Source of the DNA: Candidatus Gastranaerophilales bacterium
GTDB lineage: Bacteria > Cyanobacteriota > Vampirovibrionia > Gastranaerophilales > Gastranaerophilaceae
NCBI GenBank assembly: GCA_944326125.1
Contig: CALVCR010000114.1
Span: 1 to 33,272, forward strand
DNA: 33,272 nt
Direction of reading: 5' to 3'
The position numbers were made by a program, and so were the translations under genes. Shown piece after piece: positions 540 to 27,051 of the stretch. The notes under the pieces were generated by a model. That model searched no databases, was not told the DNA's origin, and saw only the letters and a list, made by a program, of their open reading frames with translations. Positions within the stretch are counted from its first letter, which is position 1. Each line of letters opens with the position of its first letter.

Positions 540-770
540 ACGTTTAAAGATTTTAAAAATTGCTATTAAAAAAACATTAAATTCTACAAGCTTTGCTAAA
601 ACTATTATATTTACTGAATTTTGGCGGTAAAACTTTTATTTACATATCTTTACAATGAGGTGTTCTATTACTTATTTTTAATACAAACCGGCATGTAAAA
701 ATAAGTTAGGCATGACAGAATAATGTTTCACATTGAGAGTTCATGTCTTTTAATTTTAGTTGAAAATACA

Positions 771-1154: not shown

Positions 1155-1175
1155 TTTTCAGCTTTTTAATTAATT

Positions 1176-1245
1176 GTTAACTTTTGTAACAAAATGTATA
1201 AGGTCTGAAATTAGAGATTTTTTATATACTTTATATATATGTAAG
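1176..1245 (+). promoter_or_regulatory. bipartite regulon promoter, copy 1
   Basis: GTTAACTTTTGTAAC at 1176-1190 is a dyad (GTTA-N7-TAAC). Exactly 38 nt later comes CTTTATATATATGTAAG (1229-1245), an extended -10-like element. The same two parts at the same spacing lie before gene 2359 and on the minus strand at 25473-25542. From the end of the -10 box to ATG 1268 is 22 nt, identical to copy 2. I infer an activator or repressor site near -60 and a promoter at the AT-rich box. Confidence 0.8.
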
Positions 1246-1267
1246 ACAAAAGATGGAAGATATTAAG

Positions 1268-2248
1268 ATGGTCAGCTACGGATTTAATACTATGAATATG
1301 CTTAATACGAACACCATAGGTTTCGGTAATATGCGTATGTTCATTGGCGGCCTTAACATGTTCGGTAACATGGTTGGTTCTTCCATTTTTACTAATTGTA
1401 ACGGTTCTTTTAACTATGATGCTTATGCCGGTTTTCAAGTCGGCAGTGTTCTTATGAATATTGGCGGTGCTATACTTGGTCAGGTAATTCAAGAAAAATC
1501 CGCAAATTCTAACAAGACTTTAACAGCAAATGTTGAGGATTTAAATGGTAGAATCTCTGCTGTTGAAGAAGAAAAACGGGAATATGATGGCAAAGTGAAA
1601 GAACTTGAAGGCAAGAATGAAGAAGCTGAGGGTAATATTAATACTTATGAATCAGAGTTAAGTTCTCTAAAAGTTCTTGAAACAAAAGCTGCTGATGCCA
1701 AAAATCAAGCGTTTACAAATTTACAAAATGCAACAGCTGACAATAAGACAGAGCTTCAGGCTGCATATGATGCAGCGGTTAAGGCCTACAATGAAGCTGT
1801 AAAGAACAAAGAGAATAAAGAAAAAGAAATCGAGGCTCAGCAAGAAATCATTGATACTAATAACCTTAAGATAGAAGAACTTAAAGCTAAAATAGAATCA
1901 TGCGATGAAGAGCTCGCTGATCTTAAAGCTGAACGTGATGCTATTCAGGCTCAGTTGGCAGAGCAAACTTTAGATAAGGCAGACGGTGTTAAATTAACCC
2001 GAACAACAACAGAAGAATTTGCTAAGTTATATGATATTGAAAATAATGATTATAAGGCTGGTTTTGATGCATCAAATGTAAGCAAGAGCGACTTAAGATA
2101 TATAATAAGTCAGTATAGAACAAGTGAAAATGCCGAAACAAAAGAAAAATGGGCTAAGGTCATGAAGAAAATCTATAATGACACCAATCTTGACAGCAGC
2201 GTAAAAAGCGATAACATCAGAGCAGCATATAAGTTAATGTGCGAATAA
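1268..2248 (+). CDS. coiled-coil protein of unknown function (regulon member)
   Basis: 326 aa from ATG 1268 (MVSYGFNTMNML). An in-frame ATG at 1253 exists, but 1268 has GGAAGA 7 nt upstream and sits exactly 27 nt after GTAAGA, as the start of gene 2359 does, so 1268 is preferred. Residues 1-75 are rich in Gly, Met and Asn with weakly hydrophobic stretches (about 18-40 and 54-74) but no Sec signal. Residues about 85-240 are a long Glu/Lys/Ala-rich coiled coil (ISAVEEEK.., IEELKAKIESCDEELADL). The last 80 residues look helical and globular. Family not recognised. A terminator follows, so the gene is likely monocistronic under the bipartite promoter. Confidence 0.85.
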   Translation: MVSYGFNTMNMLNTNTIGFGNMRMFIGGLNMFGNMVGSSIFTNCNGSFNYDAYAGFQVGSVLMNIGGAILGQVIQEKSANSNKTLTANVEDLNGRISAVEEEKREYDGKVKELEGKNEEAEGNINTYESELSSLKVLETKAADAKNQAFTNLQNATADNKTELQAAYDAAVKAYNEAVKNKENKEKEIEAQQEIIDTNNLKIEELKAKIESCDEELADLKAERDAIQAQLAEQTLDKADGVKLTRTTTEEFAKLYDIENNDYKAGFDASNVSKSDLRYIISQYRTSENAETKEKWAKVMKKIYNDTNLDSSVKSDNIRAAYKLMCE

Positions 2249-2266
2249 AAAGAAAAATAATTAAAT

Positions 2267-2336
2267 ATTAACATTTGTAACAAAAAAGTCCGAACCTGAA
2301 ATCGGACTTTTTTTATCGACTTTATATATATGTAAG
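2267..2336 (+). promoter_or_regulatory. bipartite regulon promoter, copy 2
   Basis: ATTAACATTTGTAAC at 2267-2281, then 38 nt, then CTTTATATATATGTAAG at 2320-2336. The second box is identical to copy 1 over 17 bases. The terminator of the preceding gene occupies the 38-nt spacer, so spacing is kept while spacer sequence is not. ATG 2359 is 22 nt after the box. Confidence 0.8.
2282..2315 (+). terminator. Rho-independent terminator
   Basis: A 12-bp stem (AAAAAAGTCCGA / TCGGACTTTTTT) with an 8-nt loop and a T-run. It ends the gene at 1268 and lies within the spacer of the next gene's bipartite promoter. Confidence 0.85.
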
Positions 2337-2358: not shown

Positions 2359-3201
2359 ATGGGCGCAATTTCAGACGGAAGCTTCAGAGATGTAGCAACT
2401 TATAATAAGCAAATGCGAGAGCTTTATACCCTTCAGAATGGCGGCGGGTATGAGACTCATTCTGTTTGGGGTTCTGCTCTGGCAACTGCGCTGCCTTCTC
2501 TTTTTATGACTTTGGGTTCAAAAATCGGAGCATCAGATGGCTCTGATGCAGAATCCGAAACCGGTGATTCTTCAAAGCTTGCAGAAGATATACAAGCTGA
2601 TATAGATAATACCCTTAGTAACGTTGGCTGTTCTGATATTTCAGAAGTGCAAACTAAGCTTCAAACTGCACAGTCAGATTTGCAAAAAATAAATACAGAT
2701 ATTAATTCTAAAGAATCTCAAATTACGCAATTGAGCAAGCAAATATCTGAACTGACGAGAGTTACGGAAGATGAATATGATAGTCCTGAGTTGATGTTAA
2801 ATAAAGCGAAAGCCGAGCAATTGAATGCACAAAAGGCTGCTCTTGAGGCAGAGCTGAAGGCCTTAAAAGCGCAACAAACTGAAAAAAAAGAGGAAGTTGA
2901 AAAGTACAGTCAGGCTTTGAATAATTTAAAAACTTTGCAAAAACAACTAAAAAAAGCAGAGGGCAGAGATGCTATTGAAAATCTTGTAAATAACGAATCA
3001 AAAGATTTTTCAAAGGCATTGACAGAACTTCGTGATGCTATTCAATCAGGAAATCAGGATTTGGTTAATACAAAAGCGTTGCTTGTTGAAGATGCATATA
3101 ATAAATATCTGAAGGAACATCCTGATGCAAAGAACAGAACAATAGAAAGAGGCTATGATTCTGTTAAAAAGTATATTAAAGCGGCGAAAGAAACTAAGTA
3201 A
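2359..3201 (+). CDS. coiled-coil protein of unknown function (regulon member)
   Basis: 280 aa, start MGAISDGSFRDVATYNKQ. A purine-rich AAGAAGAAAG lies before ATG 2359. No Sec signal. A modest hydrophobic segment is at about residues 36-56 (VWGSALATALPSLFMTLGSK), then a Ser/Asp/Glu-rich linker and a coiled coil at about 88-200. The C-terminal 80 residues contain LRDAIQSGNQD (224-234), closely similar to LRDKVVEGDQD in the protein at 16414-17331; the following residues keep Tyr spacing in both (NKY, QTY). The two may share a C-terminal domain. Its promoter matches that of the gene at 1268 in sequence and spacing. Function unknown. Confidence 0.85.
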   Translation: MGAISDGSFRDVATYNKQMRELYTLQNGGGYETHSVWGSALATALPSLFMTLGSKIGASDGSDAESETGDSSKLAEDIQADIDNTLSNVGCSDISEVQTKLQTAQSDLQKINTDINSKESQITQLSKQISELTRVTEDEYDSPELMLNKAKAEQLNAQKAALEAELKALKAQQTEKKEEVEKYSQALNNLKTLQKQLKKAEGRDAIENLVNNESKDFSKALTELRDAIQSGNQDLVNTKALLVEDAYNKYLKEHPDAKNRTIERGYDSVKKYIKAAKETK

Positions 3202-3268: not shown

Positions 3269-4201
3269 ATGAAAAGCAAAGGCTTTACTTTAGTAGAAGT
3301 TTTAATTACTTTAGCTATAATAGGGATTGTTGCGGCAATAATGTCACCTATTATTGGGGGGCTTATTCCTGATAAAAACAAAGCAATGGTGCTTAAGTTT
3401 TCTAAAACAATTACGGACTTGAATGCTGATATGTTAAATAATTCAAGTCTTTATTACAGCGGTGATACTAATTGTACCGGTTTGGATTGTCAGCAGCAAC
3501 CTTTAGATTCCCCTTATAATGCAGATTCAAAGTACAAGGGTGCTACGAAATATCCGTATTTGTTAGCAGGGAATTTGCAGGTAATGAATGATCCAGAGGT
3601 TTCGGGGGCAAATGTTACATTTACAACGGTTGATGGTGTTGACTGGTTAATAGAATCAGCAACTTCAGGTAAAGCTGTTATTACACTTGATGTGAACGGT
3701 TCGGGTGCTCCTAATTGCTATTATTCAGCCTCTTGTCAAAAGCCGGATCAGTTCAGACTTCTGGTCGCTTCAACCGGGAAACTATATGCGGGCGATGCTT
3801 TAACAGAAGCTTATTTGAAGAATCCGACAAAATTGAATGATAAGAAAAATGATTTAAAAAATGCAGAAGAATCGGATATTGATTATACTACCGGCTATGA
3901 AGAATTGATAGATGATGTACTTGGAGTCGAATCAAAGACAGATAATTCTGCCGGAAATGACGATACAACCGGCGATGATGTAACAAATGACGATGGTGAT
4001 GATAGTGGATCAAGTAACAATACTACCGGCGGTGGGGTTAAGGATCCTATTTTAGGCAATTTTGTACAATGGAACCCGGGAAATGGTGGCGGAAATATAT
4101 CGCTTCCTCCGAATGAAGTTCTCCCTCCTACATTTGATCGTCCAAATGATGATTTTGAGTATCAGAGACCGATATTTCAAGGTGATAAGGCATATCAATA
4201 A
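3269..4201 (+). CDS. type IV pilin-like protein / pseudopilin
   Basis: 310 aa. The N-terminus MKSKGFTLVEVLITLAIIG is a class III prepilin signal: short basic leader, cleavage after Gly5, methylatable Phe6, Glu at mature position 5, then a hydrophobic helix to about residue 30. This directs assembly into type IV pili, type II secretion pseudopili or competence pili by a PilD-type peptidase, which is not in this window. The globular part has two Cys pairs (CTGLDCQQ and CYYSASCQ). From about residue 225 the protein is a low-complexity Asp/Thr/Asn/Gly stretch followed by a Pro/Gly/Asn-rich tail, unusual for a core pilin and suggestive of an exposed tip or surface extension. GAGGTG precedes the ATG. 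The stop codon directly abuts the TTG start of gmhA. Confidence 0.88.
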   Translation: MKSKGFTLVEVLITLAIIGIVAAIMSPIIGGLIPDKNKAMVLKFSKTITDLNADMLNNSSLYYSGDTNCTGLDCQQQPLDSPYNADSKYKGATKYPYLLAGNLQVMNDPEVSGANVTFTTVDGVDWLIESATSGKAVITLDVNGSGAPNCYYSASCQKPDQFRLLVASTGKLYAGDALTEAYLKNPTKLNDKKNDLKNAEESDIDYTTGYEELIDDVLGVESKTDNSAGNDDTTGDDVTNDDGDDSGSSNNTTGGGVKDPILGNFVQWNPGNGGGNISLPPNEVLPPTFDRPNDDFEYQRPIFQGDKAYQ

Positions 4202-5813: not shown

Positions 5814-6497
5814 ATGATGAAATTAAAAGGTTTTACTTTGGCAGAAGTTTTGATTACTCTTGCAATAGTTGGTGTTATTGCATCTCTGACTCTGCCGGCT
5901 TTGATGACAAATGTCTCTAAGTCAAGTGTCGGACCATCTCTGGCGAAAGCAGTTAATACAATGGAAAATGCTAATAAGATGATTCTTACAGATAATACTG
6001 CAAGACAATTAAAAACTATTTGTGCGGATGATTATATAGCTTGTTTGAAGAATTATGTTAATGGGACAATAATTTCTGAAGAAGTTAACTATTTACAGTA
6101 TTCCCTTGCTGAGCAGGCTTTTTCAACATCCGGCGGGGAAGCAGGTAATTCCAGCGTAAAAGGTTTGATGACAAATGACGGTATTGTTATTTATCAGACG
6201 GCTGCGCCTTCGGATGATCCGATTGAAGGAGCTTCCGGTGCATATTACGGAAGGTATTATACCGTATATGTAGATACTAATGGTTACAAAAAACGGCCAA
6301 ATGCTGTAGGAAGGGATACATTTGAGTTTTATGTTGACTTGAACGGAGCTGTTATTCCTTATGGCGGACAGTTATATAAGGATTATACCGGCGGTGATTC
6401 GGTACTCTGGGAAACAGGATGCCTGAAGAGCGGTCCTACTGACGGAGCCTCTTGTACAGGTTCTGTTGTAGATAATGGCTGGAAAGTTGAATATTAA
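5814..6497 (+). CDS. type IV pilin-like protein / pseudopilin
   Basis: 227 aa. The start MMKLKGFTLAEVLITLAIVG has the prepilin cleavage site after Gly6, Phe at the mature N-terminus and Glu at mature position 5, with a hydrophobic helix to about residue 30. The C-terminal domain includes RYYTVYVDTNGYKKRPN and FEFYVDLNGAVIPYGG, the arrangement of a beta-sheet with an exposed loop common in minor pilins. AGAGG lies 8 nt before the ATG. A near-consensus promoter precedes it and a strong terminator follows, so it is a single-gene unit. It differs from the 3269 pilin in lacking a long low-complexity tail. Filament type (T4P, T2SS or competence) cannot be told from sequence alone. Confidence 0.88.
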   Translation: MMKLKGFTLAEVLITLAIVGVIASLTLPALMTNVSKSSVGPSLAKAVNTMENANKMILTDNTARQLKTICADDYIACLKNYVNGTIISEEVNYLQYSLAEQAFSTSGGEAGNSSVKGLMTNDGIVIYQTAAPSDDPIEGASGAYYGRYYTVYVDTNGYKKRPNAVGRDTFEFYVDLNGAVIPYGGQLYKDYTGGDSVLWETGCLKSGPTDGASCTGSVVDNGWKVEY

Positions 6498-16413: not shown

Positions 16414-17331
16414 TTATGTTGTACTTGGTTTTGTAATCTGCCATACAGCGTCGCCGATAAGTCCGACCAGAGCCCCTGCAACAGCAGCATTCTTAGCAAA
16501 TTTCCAGTTCATTTTTAGTGTTCCTGGGAGCTTGAGGGTGTCTTTTAATTTTTTAGGGAGTATGCTTACCCCGGCTTTACCGATACCATTAATTAGAAGT
16601 GATGCTCCACCACCAGCAATTGCACCATATGCACTATACTTGGCTGCGTGAGCTACACCGCCGCCTATAGCACCGATGGTTTTTGCTGTATCTTGACTTC
16701 CTTTCTGATCAATTCTCAAACCAAAGCAGTGGTTTAATGTCTGATCAACATATTTTTCTGATGAACCCGGCTTGAATTGCTTTTTGAAGCCTGTTGTCAT
16801 AGCACTTCCGCCATACTTTTTGATATCATTTCTTAAGTCACTTTTGCAGACTGTGTTATAGACCGCTTCAATTAATTCTGAGGCTGATGTTTTAGGATTA
16901 TTAAATCCGTTTCTTTCATTAAGTTCACCTTTATATGTCTGATATATTGCGGATTTTAATTCGTCAAATTCCTGACAGATACCATCTTGGTCACCTTCTA
17001 CAACTTTGTCACGCAAGTTCTGGATACCTTGCATTACATCAGAGTTTGTTAAAACTTTTCTGATTAAAGCTGAATCGGTTTCTCGGTTAGCTCTTACATC
17101 ATTCTGCAATAACATTGAATGCATATCTGCAGAGTGCTGCATTTGAGAAGATTCAATATCCTGCTGAGTATAAGCCATCATTAAAGGATAATTTATTCCC
17201 ATCCCATATCCGTATGGTGAATACATTCCGCCCATACCGTACATCATATTATCATATGAGGTAAATGTTCCCGGTGCACTTAATGCTAAGTTGCCGAGCC
17301 CGTAACCTATCCCAGATATCGGTAATGCCAT
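16414..17331 (-). CDS. Gly/Met-rich protein of unknown function (likely regulon member)
   Basis: 305 aa, start MALPISGIGYGLGNLALS; TAGGAGG lies 6 nt before ATG 17331. No Sec signal. Residues 26-55 are Gly/Met/Tyr-rich (YGMGGMYSPYGYGMG), recalling the N-terminus of the protein at 1268. A helical section (55-150) includes LRDKVVEGDQD (106-116), nearly the same as LRDAIQSGNQD in the protein at 2359. Residues about 215-245 and 280-300 are Gly/Ala-rich hydrophobic stretches that could insert in a membrane. Its upstream -10 box (17369-17385) matches the regulon box at 15 of 17 positions. Function unknown. It has its own terminator. Confidence 0.83.
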   Translation of the reverse strand: MALPISGIGYGLGNLALSAPGTFTSYDNMMYGMGGMYSPYGYGMGINYPLMMAYTQQDIESSQMQHSADMHSMLLQNDVRANRETDSALIRKVLTNSDVMQGIQNLRDKVVEGDQDGICQEFDELKSAIYQTYKGELNERNGFNNPKTSASELIEAVYNTVCKSDLRNDIKKYGGSAMTTGFKKQFKPGSSEKYVDQTLNHCFGLRIDQKGSQDTAKTIGAIGGGVAHAAKYSAYGAIAGGGASLLINGIGKAGVSILPKKLKDTLKLPGTLKMNWKFAKNAAVAGALVGLIGDAVWQITKPSTT

Positions 17332-17368: not shown

Positions 17369-17385
17369 CTTACATATTAATAAAG
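17369..17385 (-). promoter_or_regulatory. regulon-type -10 box
   Basis: CTTTATTAATATGTAAG on the minus strand, two mismatches from CTTTATATATATGTAAG. About 40 nt upstream the minus strand reads TAAACTTTTATTAA, a degraded form of the dyad TTAACTTTTGTAAC at nearly the same distance (2 nt longer). Confidence 0.55.
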
Positions 17386-17502
17386 TATTTCTGTATTTCT
17401 AAATTGCTTGTTTTATGCTTTTTGCTTAATAAAAGTTTACAATTGTTACATAAGCCTTTTTGCTGACTTTGTTGTATTATATACATATAAAAGGGGAGTG
17501 CT

Positions 17503-24094: not shown

Positions 24095-25246
24095 CTAGCT
24101 GAATATACCGAATGTACGTTCGATATTATCATCTCGAACCTGTTTAAGAGCATCCATTTCTGTTGTTATGGAGGTTCTTTCTGTTTCAAGTTTGCTTAAT
24201 TCTGTATCAAATTTTGAATCCTTTTGATTTATTTTATCAAGTTCATATTCATATTCTGCTTCAGCTTTTTTTAAGTCTGTATCATCTTGAACTTCTTGCA
24301 GATAGTTTTCATTAGTACTTGTTGTAATACTTGTGTCTACCCAGCCTTTATTAGCTCCGTCAGTATTGTATACCTGGATAGTAACAAGTCCTGCTTCTAC
24401 CATGTTCTGGAACCATTCATTGCCTGCTTCGCCGCTCTGGTATTGTTCATCAATAGTGGTACAGCCTCCGGCTTCTTCAATACCTTCGTAGAGCTGAACA
24501 TAGTAGTTGAATTCTGCTTCAAAATCATTCCACGTGCAGTCAGGGAAATCTATGTCTCCGTCATCTTCTCCCATAACTCCGCTTTTATTTATATTCATCT
24601 GGTCATAGATTTCTGAAGAATATTTTTCATATAATAAGCTCCTGAATTCATCTAATGCTGTTTGTTTTGCACTATCACCTTCGGCTTCTTCAATAGCGTC
24701 AAATGCTTCAACAAGTTCCGAGTCATCTGTGTGTGAGTCATAAACCCGCTGTTCACTATCTGTCATGTATAAACTATGCCCCGTGCCACTTTCGCTGTCG
24801 TAGCCATAGTCTTGTTGGGCAGTACCGATACCGACTTCACATCCCTGATTCCCATTTCCGTTCCAGCCAAAATTACCTTCAAATCCTATCATTGCGTATG
24901 CAAATGCATATTTGTCGCTATATGATTCATATTTTTCGGCAACTTCTTCCGGTACAATCATATTCCCGGTTTTTGAATCAATAAGAGCATACTGTTTTAC
25001 TCGGGTTTCACTATAGCCGCATAATGTAGAAAAGTTTGCATCAACATATTTAACACTTGCATCATCATTTCTGAATGCGACTTGTATTTTAGTGGCATCC
25101 CATGCATCACAGTAGTTCTGGTACAACTCATCTTTCTGAGTTGCCAAGGCTATCTTTTGAGACTCTAAATTTTGAGCTTTTAACTCTACATCATGGAGTC
25201 TGCTGGTCAAAGATAGTAATCTAGCTTGTGACGCCGCCATTCCCAT
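24095..25246 (-). CDS. protein with terminal coiled coils, unknown function (regulon member)
   Basis: 383 aa; AAGGAAC lies 8 nt before ATG 25246. No Sec signal. Residues 1-50 (MGMAASQARLLSLTSRLHD, then LKAQNLESQKIALATQ) form an amphipathic helix or coil. Residues 55-310 are acidic, rich in Asp, Glu, Tyr and Gly. Residues about 316-383 form a second coiled coil ending in IERTFGIFS. Helical ends around a variable middle recall flagellin, hook-type and other axial proteins whose termini pack together; this is an analogy, not homology. I recall similar starts in proteins of gut Melainabacteria, unverified. Two RTTA-N7-TAAC dyads lie upstream, at 25328 and 25528. Confidence 0.85.
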   Translation of the reverse strand: MGMAASQARLLSLTSRLHDVELKAQNLESQKIALATQKDELYQNYCDAWDATKIQVAFRNDDASVKYVDANFSTLCGYSETRVKQYALIDSKTGNMIVPEEVAEKYESYSDKYAFAYAMIGFEGNFGWNGNGNQGCEVGIGTAQQDYGYDSESGTGHSLYMTDSEQRVYDSHTDDSELVEAFDAIEEAEGDSAKQTALDEFRSLLYEKYSSEIYDQMNINKSGVMGEDDGDIDFPDCTWNDFEAEFNYYVQLYEGIEEAGGCTTIDEQYQSGEAGNEWFQNMVEAGLVTIQVYNTDGANKGWVDTSITTSTNENYLQEVQDDTDLKKAEAEYEYELDKINQKDSKFDTELSKLETERTSITTEMDALKQVRDDNIERTFGIFS

Positions 25247-25272: not shown

Positions 25273-25342
25273 TATACCAATATTTACGGCATTTTTGATG
25301 AAAAACTTTAGGATTTGATAATAAATTGTTACAAAAGTTAAT
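25273..25342 (-). promoter_or_regulatory. regulon dyad, copy 4, with a divergent -10 region
   Basis: ATTAACTTTTGTAAC on the minus strand (25342-25328), 82 nt before ATG 25246, close to the 78 nt seen before genes 1268 and 2359. The downstream part at the expected spacing reads CCGTAAATATTGGTATA, not the conserved box. Confidence 0.6.
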
Positions 25343-25384
25343 ATTTAATTGTTATATCACTCCGGTATATCGATTTCATGCTTC

Positions 25385-25415
25385 TATAAAATAAAAGCTT
25401 CTCATCATGAGAAGC
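25385..25415 (-). terminator. Rho-independent terminator
   Basis: GCTTCTCAT / ATGAGAAGC followed on the minus strand by TTTTATTTT. It lies about 70-80 nt after copy 3 of the regulon promoter and before the gene it might otherwise serve. Confidence 0.8.
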
Positions 25416-25470
25416 GGGAAAAGGTTTTTAGGAAGGGAATTTAGGAATTAAAATCTTTTATATCATCTTG
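25388..25470 (-). ncRNA. putative small RNA or leader remnant
   Basis: A complete bipartite promoter (25473-25542) points into this stretch, which ends in a strong terminator without any usable reading frame (ATG ATA TAA only). The product would be about 80 nt. It could be a small RNA of the regulon, or what remains of a deleted regulon gene between its promoter and terminator. Confidence 0.4.
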
Positions 25471-25472
25471 CA

Positions 25473-25542
25473 CTTACATATATATAAAGTATATATATGC
25501 GTCTTAATTTCAACGAAGATACTTTTTGTTACAAAACTTAAC
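25473..25542 (-). promoter_or_regulatory. bipartite regulon promoter, copy 3
   Basis: On the minus strand GTTAAGTTTTGTAAC (25542-25528), 38 nt, then CTTTATATATATGTAAG (25489-25473). Box and spacing are identical to copies 1 and 2. The dyad touches the stop codon of the radical SAM gene. Confidence 0.8.
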
Positions 25543-27051
25543 TTAGGATTTGTTCATTAATCTTTTATATTCGTTTATTAAAAGCTGCTTTGGCGGGTAT
25601 ATATCAATATAATCCCAAGGCAGGGTCTCTGTTAAATCAAATCCGTTTATAGCTTTCTCTGTCGAAATGGAAATCTCTTTTAAGGCAGATTTATAGGCTC
25701 CGCTTTTCCCGCCTTTTTTGTATACTTCAATAAGAAGCGGCGTTAGTGTTTCATCTCCACGTGATAATAAGGTCTGCCAGTAATCCCATTTGATACTTGA
25801 AAATTTTGAAGTCATTCCTATTTTAGCCAGTTCTTTTTCCAGATATTTTTGTTTTTTTTCAAGTGTTTTTGAATCTTCTCTTGCACACCATTGGAAAGGA
25901 GTTTGCGGTTTAGGTACAAAGGTTGAAAAAGAGAAGGTTATATTAAATCCTTTATTTTCGTTTTTTATTTTTTTTGCAAGTACCAAAAATTCATCAATAT
26001 CTTCCTGTGTTTCAGTTGGAATTCCTATCATAGAGTATATCTTAAGCCCTTTTAAGCCGTTTTCTCTTGAAATTCTTACGGCATTTAAAATCTGTTCCTC
26101 CTTAAGGTTTTTATTTATAACCTTTCGGAGTCTTTCGCTTGCCGCTTCTATTGCGATTGTGGAATTTTTCTGCCCTCCTTTAACCAGAGTTTTTACCATT
26201 TCCGCTGTTACTGAGTCTGTCCTGAGGGATGATATTCCAAGCTCAATATTCTCTCCGGATTCCATTTTTTCATATAGATAATTCATTATTTTGCTAAAAT
26301 CCGGGTGTGCGCTTATTTGTGCTCCTAAAAGTGCAATTTTATTGGTATGGGATAATCCTAGATTAATAGCTTTAATAATTTCTTCATAAGGATAGTATCT
26401 AAACGGTAGGTTTATATATGATGCGGTGCAGAATGCACAGCGATTCATGCAGCCTCTTGATACCTCTATTACAAAGGTATCCTTGAAGTAACTTTTATCA
26501 CTTAGAATAGGAGTATAAATAACATTATTAAGCGGTACTGTTGCTTTTTTTACGGTATTATTGAGCGAAGGCACCAAAACTCCTTCTAATTGTGATAACT
26601 TTTGCAAAGTTTTTTCTTTTGTATCTTTTTCTTTTAAAATCTCAAGAACTTTTATAAATGATTCTTCTCCATCTCCTATCATTAAAAAATCAAAAATTTG
26701 TTTTAACGGTTCGGGATTTGTGGTTATAACAGGGCCGCCTGCGAATATTAAAGGCGAGTTTTCGTCTCTTTCAGAGGATTTTAAGGGTATTTTGTATCTT
26801 TCCAGCAGTTCAAACACTCCCATAAAATCAAAATCAAAAGAAAGTGAAAATGCTATTGCATCAGCTTGGAATGCCGGATGTTCGGTATCCGTACATACAC
26901 GTATAGCATTTATATTAGCCATTGTGTCTGCCAGCCTGTATAACCACATATATCCAAGGGAAGATAAGGCAAACTCTTCTATTGCCGGATACGCCATCCA
27001 GAAGTTAAAATTGCTTTTTTGTCTAGAGGGTTGGTAAAGAAGTTTTTCCAT
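25543..27051 (-). CDS. radical SAM protein with B12-binding-like N-terminal domain
   Basis: 502 aa. C201, C205 and C208 (SRGCMNRCAFCTAS) ligate the radical SAM 4Fe-4S cluster. The N-terminal 190 residues, with AYPAIEEFALSSLGYMWLYRL, LIFAGGPVITTNPEPL and MIGDGEESF, resemble the cobalamin-binding-like domain of YgiQ/TIGR03960-type proteins. The TIM-barrel part includes IEAASERLRKVINKNL and YSMIGIPTETQEDIDEF. Substrate unknown; relatives act in RNA or small-molecule modification. The gene begins 1 nt after the stop of the AI-2E gene, so both are in one operon. Confidence 0.87.
   Translation of the reverse strand: MEKLLYQPSRQKSNFNFWMAYPAIEEFALSSLGYMWLYRLADTMANINAIRVCTDTEHPAFQADAIAFSLSFDFDFMGVFELLERYKIPLKSSERDENSPLIFAGGPVITTNPEPLKQIFDFLMIGDGEESFIKVLEILKEKDTKEKTLQKLSQLEGVLVPSLNNTVKKATVPLNNVIYTPILSDKSYFKDTFVIEVSRGCMNRCAFCTASYINLPFRYYPYEEIIKAINLGLSHTNKIALLGAQISAHPDFSKIMNYLYEKMESGENIELGISSLRTDSVTAEMVKTLVKGGQKNSTIAIEAASERLRKVINKNLKEEQILNAVRISRENGLKGLKIYSMIGIPTETQEDIDEFLVLAKKIKNENKGFNITFSFSTFVPKPQTPFQWCAREDSKTLEKKQKYLEKELAKIGMTSKFSSIKWDYWQTLLSRGDETLTPLLIEVYKKGGKSGAYKSALKEISISTEKAINGFDLTETLPWDYIDIYPPKQLLINEYKRLMNKS

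Follow-up and report, generated by a model that had tools for sequence, protein, structure and literature searches.

What kind of promoter stands ahead of the coiled-coil protein genes in this stretch of DNA, and which regulator may act on it? The window, meaning the whole stretch of 33,272 nucleotides that was analysed, is contig C114 of a 1.72-Mb, 145-contig MAG of Candidatus Gastranaerophilales that is 86% complete. Gastranaerophilales are an order of gut bacteria belonging to the cyanobacteria without photosynthesis, or Melainabacteria. A first-pass annotation of the window described a two-part element, RTTA-N7-TAAC followed after 38 nt by CTTTATATATATGTAAG, and read the first part (box 1) as the imperfect dyad of a dimeric, perhaps CRP-like, regulator near -60 and the second part (box 2) as a -10-like box. 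The genome also encodes an ortholog of RpaB, a regulator of light responses in cyanobacteria. Homologs of RpaA, RpaB and NblS have been reported in Melainabacteria, possibly with another function (Di Rienzi et al. 2013, PMC3787301), a termite-gut genome paper again notes rpaA and rpaB (PMC5877343), and the lineage is reported to be non-photosynthetic (PMC3787301).

Three parts of the element in the window

All three copies of the element were found where the first-pass annotation had placed them, and the gap from TAAC to CTTTATATATATGTAAG is exactly 38 nt in each (1190/1229, 2281/2320 and, on the minus strand, 25528/25489). Genes 1268 and 2359 indeed both start 22 nt past the second box. As had also been described, the spacers differ in sequence while their length is fixed, and the spacer of copy 2 contains a terminator. 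The two boxes are real, but the two-part description overlooked a third, -35-like element inside the spacer. The element thus has three parts: the upstream box, then TGAAAT or GGCAAT as a -35-like hexamer, and exactly 17 nt later CTTTATATATATGTAAG (Table 1). The claim that the element precedes coiled-coil genes holds for copies 1 and 2 but not for copy 3, where a predicted sRNA of about 85 nt, with a terminator at its end, comes next instead.

Table 1. Coordinates of the promoter elements and neighbouring features in the window.
Feature	Position	Strand	Basis or remark
Exact HLR1 consensus	639..656	+	Ahead of a minus-strand gene that starts near 476, at a distance of about 163 nt
HLR1-like box, copy 1	1173..1190	-	GTTACAAAAGTTAACAAT, 15/16 to KTTACAWWNNKTTACAWW; reverse-oriented
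-35-like TGAAAT, copy 1	1206..1211	+	17 nt before box 2
Box 2 CTTTATATATATGTAAG (-10 region), copy 1	1229..1245	+	Pattern search
Coiled-coil protein without Sec signal	1268..2248	+	Pfam: none above cut-off
HLR1-like box, copy 2	2264..2281	-	14/16 to consensus; reverse-oriented
Terminator (hairpin and T-run) of upstream gene 1268, within promoter spacer	2288..2314	+	Sequence
-35-like TGAAAT, copy 2	2297..2302	+	Sequence
Box 2, copy 2	2320..2336	+	Pattern search
Coiled-coil protein without Sec signal	2359..3201	+	ORF
Protein downstream of class B site	16414..17331	-	ORF
Weaker class B site, fourth in window	17369..17446	-	AGCAATTTAG ... CTTTATTAATATGTAAG; model R1 E=2.8e-9
MGMAASQARLL... protein	24095..25246	-	Downstream of sRNA and extra HLR1-like box
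Extra HLR1-like box without box 2	25328..25345	+	14/16; ahead of minus-strand gene 24095-25246
Predicted sRNA, family 2	25388..25472	-	Alignment of 8 genus loci, fold, no Rfam match
Box 2, copy 3	25473..25489	-	Pattern search
-35-like TGAAAT, copy 3	25507..25512	-	Sequence
HLR1-like box, copy 3	25528..25545	+	14/16; reverse-oriented relative to minus-strand transcript

Recurrence and geometry of the element

By itself, RTTA-N7-TAAC is weak evidence, with 8 matches in the window against 3.8 expected. Box 2 gave 5 matches in the window with up to three mismatches (0.37 expected), and 23 matches in the genome with up to two mismatches, compared with 1 for the reversed pattern. Alignment of the 23 genome matches left about 19 plausible sites and revealed the third element in the 38-nt spacer, which reads TGAAAT in one class of sites (class A), AAAAGGCAATTTTT in another (class B), and TGCAAT in a few. 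A sequence-only model, R1, built from the 19 sites, found about 54 matches in the genome at E<0.006 and 76 matches in stretches from related genomes. When the distinct box-2 sites of this and related genomes were pooled (124 sites, most of those used coming from one genus and so not independent), 111 kept the spacing [TG]G[AC]AAT-N17-CTTT. The distance from the end of the upstream box to CTTT is 38 nt in 72 sites and 39 nt in 15 where the box is reverse-oriented; for forward-oriented boxes it is mostly 36 nt (16 sites). In weaker sites GCAATT and ACTTTATAT are retained. The 17-nt and 38/39-nt spacings bear out the earlier view of a promoter element with fixed geometry and a -10-like second part.

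The first-pass annotation had called for a genome-wide motif search, and the distribution found by the search is not random: 42 of the 54 genome matches have an ATG ORF of at least 50 aa within 60 nt downstream, compared with 26% of AT-rich control positions. The repeated sequence is a real and unusually strict promoter family. A standard sigma-70 promoter has TTGACA-N17-TATAAT. The element has the canonical 17-nt spacing, with TGAAAT/GGCAAT and CTTTAT as its hexamers instead, and box 2, conserved over 17 nt, exceeds a normal -10 in length. Reading TATACT as the -10 was rejected, since this would leave only 13-14 nt between it and the -35-like box.

Outside this genome, all 21 further genomes of the same genus had 50-99 matches each to the R1 model at E<=0.1. 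Matches were fewer in the other families of the order, being strong in families f6 and f7 and weak in f2-f5. With stricter filters and E<=1e-5, the composite promoter was found in 38/38 genomes sampled from its own family and in 0/79 sampled from the class outside this family. This combination of parts thus characterizes the lineage, and RpaB itself is spread more widely.

Several further arrangements were observed in the window. The copy 2 promoter of gene 2359 overlaps the terminator of gene 1268 so that TGAAAT begins in the hairpin loop, and a -35-like TGAAAT within a terminator hairpin is also present in three loci of relatives (L117, L124 and L154). Upstream of the minus-strand gene at the left edge, between 480 and 656, the exact HLR1 is accompanied by a class B-like core of degenerate sequence (AGCAATTTTT ... 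GATATATAAGTAAG), at which model R1 gives no match. The order of sRNA, HLR1-like box and gene at the MGMAASQ gene recurs in a related locus (L132). Two genes, at 3269-4201 and 5814-6497, have type IV prepilin-like N-termini (KGFTLVEVLITLAIIGIVAAI).

The upstream box resembles HLR1

The published binding consensus of RpaB, known as HLR1, is KTTACAWW-N2-KTTACAWW (PMC13421787). HLR1 was scored at every offset of 90 core sites that had been picked without using box 1, which makes the comparison non-circular. Class A (58 sites) has a reverse-oriented HLR1 15 nt before the -35-like box, with a mean score of 14.78 of 16 against a background of 7.4, and class B (25 sites) has a weaker, forward HLR1 13 nt before the -35-like box, with a mean of 12.64 of 16. 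In the whole genome, HLR1 with at most one mismatch has 97 matches, compared with 30 for the reversed pattern. HLR1 scores of at least 13/16 were reached in 467 of 1202 (39%) random AT-rich 100-nt stretches. Because HLR1 is so frequent by chance in AT-rich DNA, the claim is based on the high mean score at one constant offset and not on the motif being present. We conclude with good confidence that box 1 is a predicted direct repeat of the HLR1 type, the RpaB site. The idea of one shared regulator site upstream is upheld in this form. As for the earlier statement that no regulon with such an element had been described, the binding motif has been described already as HLR1, though, in the literature searched, neither for this group nor together with this core promoter. 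If CTTTAT is the -10, the HLR1-like box, lying 13-15 nt before the -35-like hexamer, would extend from about -68 to -51; cyanobacterial HLR1 at about -66 to -45 activates (PMC13421787).

RpaB, other response regulators and sigma factors

The RpaB ortholog of the genome (C82:3023-3808) shares about 70% identity with the aligned RpaB proteins of Nostoc and Synechococcus. The DTRVVDVHISRLR region is the same as in cyanobacterial RpaB, and the recognition-helix region is nearly unchanged. Among plasmids, its best 12 matches are all cyanobacterial and 53-67% identical, with 11/12 annotated as RpaB, and its genome matches have at least 59% identity in Cyanobacteria/Melainabacteria and at most 46% elsewhere. 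The genome has three OmpR-type response regulators: the RpaB ortholog, L083, and L084, which by inspection resembles RpaA and has a promoter match directly after its stop codon. A class B site lies upstream of rpaB in this genome, as it does in 3 of the 18 named loci, which gives a weak hint that rpaB may be autoregulated. No description of an RpaB regulon in Melainabacteria/Gastranaerophilales was found in the literature searched, which covered few subscription journals.

Eight sigma factors were found in the genome. In one of them, L077, the recognition regions differ by inspection from those of the housekeeping sigma, and about 110 nt upstream of its gene (L203, G000:C80:12690-13010), containing an HLR1-like site and TTGA...GATATAT, are conserved in most of the genus genomes inspected. 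With its divergent recognition regions and the HLR1-like site upstream, L077 is an attractive candidate for the sigma factor of box 2. Its phylogenetic profile was uninformative about such a role, as relatives occur across the order whether the motif is strong or weak. The element consensus does not match the promoter motif of cyanobacterial SigF, TAGGC (-32) and GGTAA (-12) (PMC2758279).

Proteins downstream of the promoters

The first-pass annotation held that the controlled proteins have no Sec signals, and by a simple hydropathy rule a Sec-like start was indeed found in 0/42 downstream proteins, compared with 43/256 other ORFs. Pfam matches were obtained for 3 of the 20 larger downstream proteins (GH108, HEAT repeats and a weak RHS repeat), and none of these 20 matched photosynthesis or high-light target genes of the kind found in cyanobacterial regulons. 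Downstream families that recur across the genus include MAIANLHETLL, MANTAALLG/MSTAAQLG, MALLQSYDINAM, MLTVTTSEES and others. For the MANTAALLG family, AlphaFold predicts a helical hairpin with confidence (pLDDT 92), to which the PDB has no significant match (best E 0.038). The proteins behind two class B sites (G000:C99:15839 and C9:2770) are identical, 62 aa long (MARVLISMPESFLGKIDEVADLESRSRSELIREALRSYITRS), and resemble ribbon-helix-helix regulators. On the minus strand of G000:C117 (L081), a protein with a highly repetitive PPTGGTEPPAAGTEPP tail adjoins a FliA-like sigma gene.

One site stands ahead of a 99-aa gene, after which an AAA/R3H gene and then fliP, fliQ, fliR, flhB and flhA come next on that strand, as in flagellar/type III export regulons. 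Unlike in flagellar regulons, the composite site was present in 0/5 flagellin upstream regions inspected, and an exact HLR1 in 1/5. Since FHIPEP export-gate genes were found in 37/37 genomes sampled from the order, most with two full-length copies, and flagellins in 36/37, it is possible that regulon products are exported by a type III system. In the genome itself, two full-length FlhA-type export gates (G000:C60:6293-8383 and C138:38052-40160) both have promoter matches nearby.

Predicted small RNAs

Three sites of the genome run into terminators rather than ORFs, and these transcripts are predicted sRNAs of two families. In family 1, the sites at C6:4072 and C51:30506 precede near-identical stretches with the invariant core AACCTTTCATACAACCTACACACTAACCTTCT...ACACATGAGGAATT, which is kept in six loci of relatives. 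Family 2, behind window site 25473, is UCCCUAAAUCCCUUCCUAA-like and kept in seven loci of the genus; its window member, of about 85 nt, would fold into a single-stranded CU-rich UUCCUAAAUUCCCUUCCUAAAAACCUUUUCCC followed by the terminator GCTTCTCATGATGAGAAGC and a T-run. In another family of the order, sites are likewise followed by CU-rich stretches like that of sRNA family 2 (L138, L141). Neither family has a credible Rfam match, and in both the CU-rich part is largely unpaired and anti-Shine-Dalgarno-like. Calculated sRNA-leader duplex energies did not separate the leaders of the regulon from others (p=0.17 and 0.07). A GGTTAG seed, chosen post hoc, was found in 6/38 class B leaders and 3/274 others (Fisher p=1.4e-4), so that pairing of the sRNAs with class B leaders via GGTTAG is only suggestive.

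The copy 3 transcript (25472-25388) could instead belong to the MGMAASQ gene as its 5' attenuator leader, as it lies upstream of that gene on the same strand, in the window and likewise in L132. We regard this as doubtful, because homologous stretches with terminators occur in other contexts (L119, L122, L125, L126, L172 and L179) and the MGMAASQ gene has its own HLR1-like box past the terminator.

Alternative readings of the element

The dyad of a CRP/FNR or NtcA-type regulator near -60 was suggested by GTTA-N7-TAAC, which is imperfectly palindromic in the window copies. When the arrangements were compared over the 58 class A sites, the direct repeat reached 14.8 of 16, while the inverted arrangement peaked at 12.3 and the everted one at 11.8. 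The dyad look of box 1 is therefore incidental, since the direct repeat outscores the inverted one at the fixed offset. In addition, the bases inside the supposed dyad are not complementary, and NtcA GTA-N8-TAC has no match in the consensus, which makes this reading, and with it the CRP-like dyad of the first-pass annotation, very improbable. Even harder to credit is a mobile or duplicated repeat without regulatory function as the source of the conserved block. In its favour, the 17 nt of box 2 hardly vary, and neighbouring coiled-coil genes follow the copies at 1176 and 2267; against it, spacers of fixed length differ in sequence, one of them contains a terminator, and the sites are found, on the matching strand, ahead of sRNAs and of genes that are not related.

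A different question is which OmpR-type regulator would use the box. The RpaA paralog or the third regulator, L083, might bind it, with the mechanism otherwise the same, given that the genome has three such regulators, that the RpaA-like L084 has a promoter match after its stop codon, and that RpaA and RpaB compete for shared sites in cyanobacteria (PMC13421787). We consider this unlikely, as the consensus found is the one published for RpaB and the recognition-helix region of RpaB has barely changed.

Discussion

It is likely that the element is an HLR1/RpaB promoter in which a -35-like hexamer and, 17 nt later, a long -10/start region drive about 50 transcription units. We propose that RpaB, an OmpR-type regulator, would recruit RNA polymerase when bound to HLR1, which lies 13-15 nt ahead of the -35-like hexamer (class A, TGAAAT; class B, GGCAAT), and that transcripts would start with short leaders from the long -10/start region CTTTATATATATGTAAG. 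In this manner RpaB may control mostly uncharacterized proteins without Sec signals, together with at least two sRNA families. Binding, activation, start sites and sRNA expression are predicted here from the DNA sequence.

The proposed regulon is similar to the RpaB/HLR1 regulon of the cyanobacteria Synechocystis 6803 and Synechococcus 7942 in its binding consensus, in the orthologous regulator, in its predicted sRNA members and, for the predicted start sites, in an HLR1 placed directly ahead of the core promoter, where activated cyanobacterial genes have it. Unlike the cyanobacterial regulon, it is found in bacteria that have no photosynthesis, its targets are uncharacterized non-Sec proteins and new sRNAs, its promoters keep strictly to the 17-nt spacing and have a box 2 that hardly varies over its 17 nt, and its sites fall into two classes with HLR1 in opposite orientations. 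The RpaB regulon of cyanobacteria includes the sRNA PsrR1 (PMC13421787). As in the RpaB-PsrR1 loop of Synechocystis 6803, a predicted sRNA here lies under an HLR1 site alongside protein genes; unlike in that loop, the sRNAs are outside Rfam families, CU-rich and anti-Shine-Dalgarno-like, and target pairing is only suggested. A more far-reaching possibility, which we put forward as speculative and not probable as a whole, is that RpaB is in charge of a regulon devoted to non-Sec proteins, possibly exported by a type III system, that the sRNAs pair with class B leaders in a feed-forward loop, and that a sigma factor of its own (C80:11812-12693, with a conserved HLR1-like site upstream in the genus) reads the long box 2.

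The HLR1 promoters provide an explicit, testable list of targets for RpaB outside photosynthesis, and this list bears on what RpaB may have done before, or may do without, oxygenic photosynthesis. They also expose two new predicted sRNA families and a large set of uncharacterized proteins in a common gut lineage, and hint that RpaB may have a role in a non-photosynthetic microbe.
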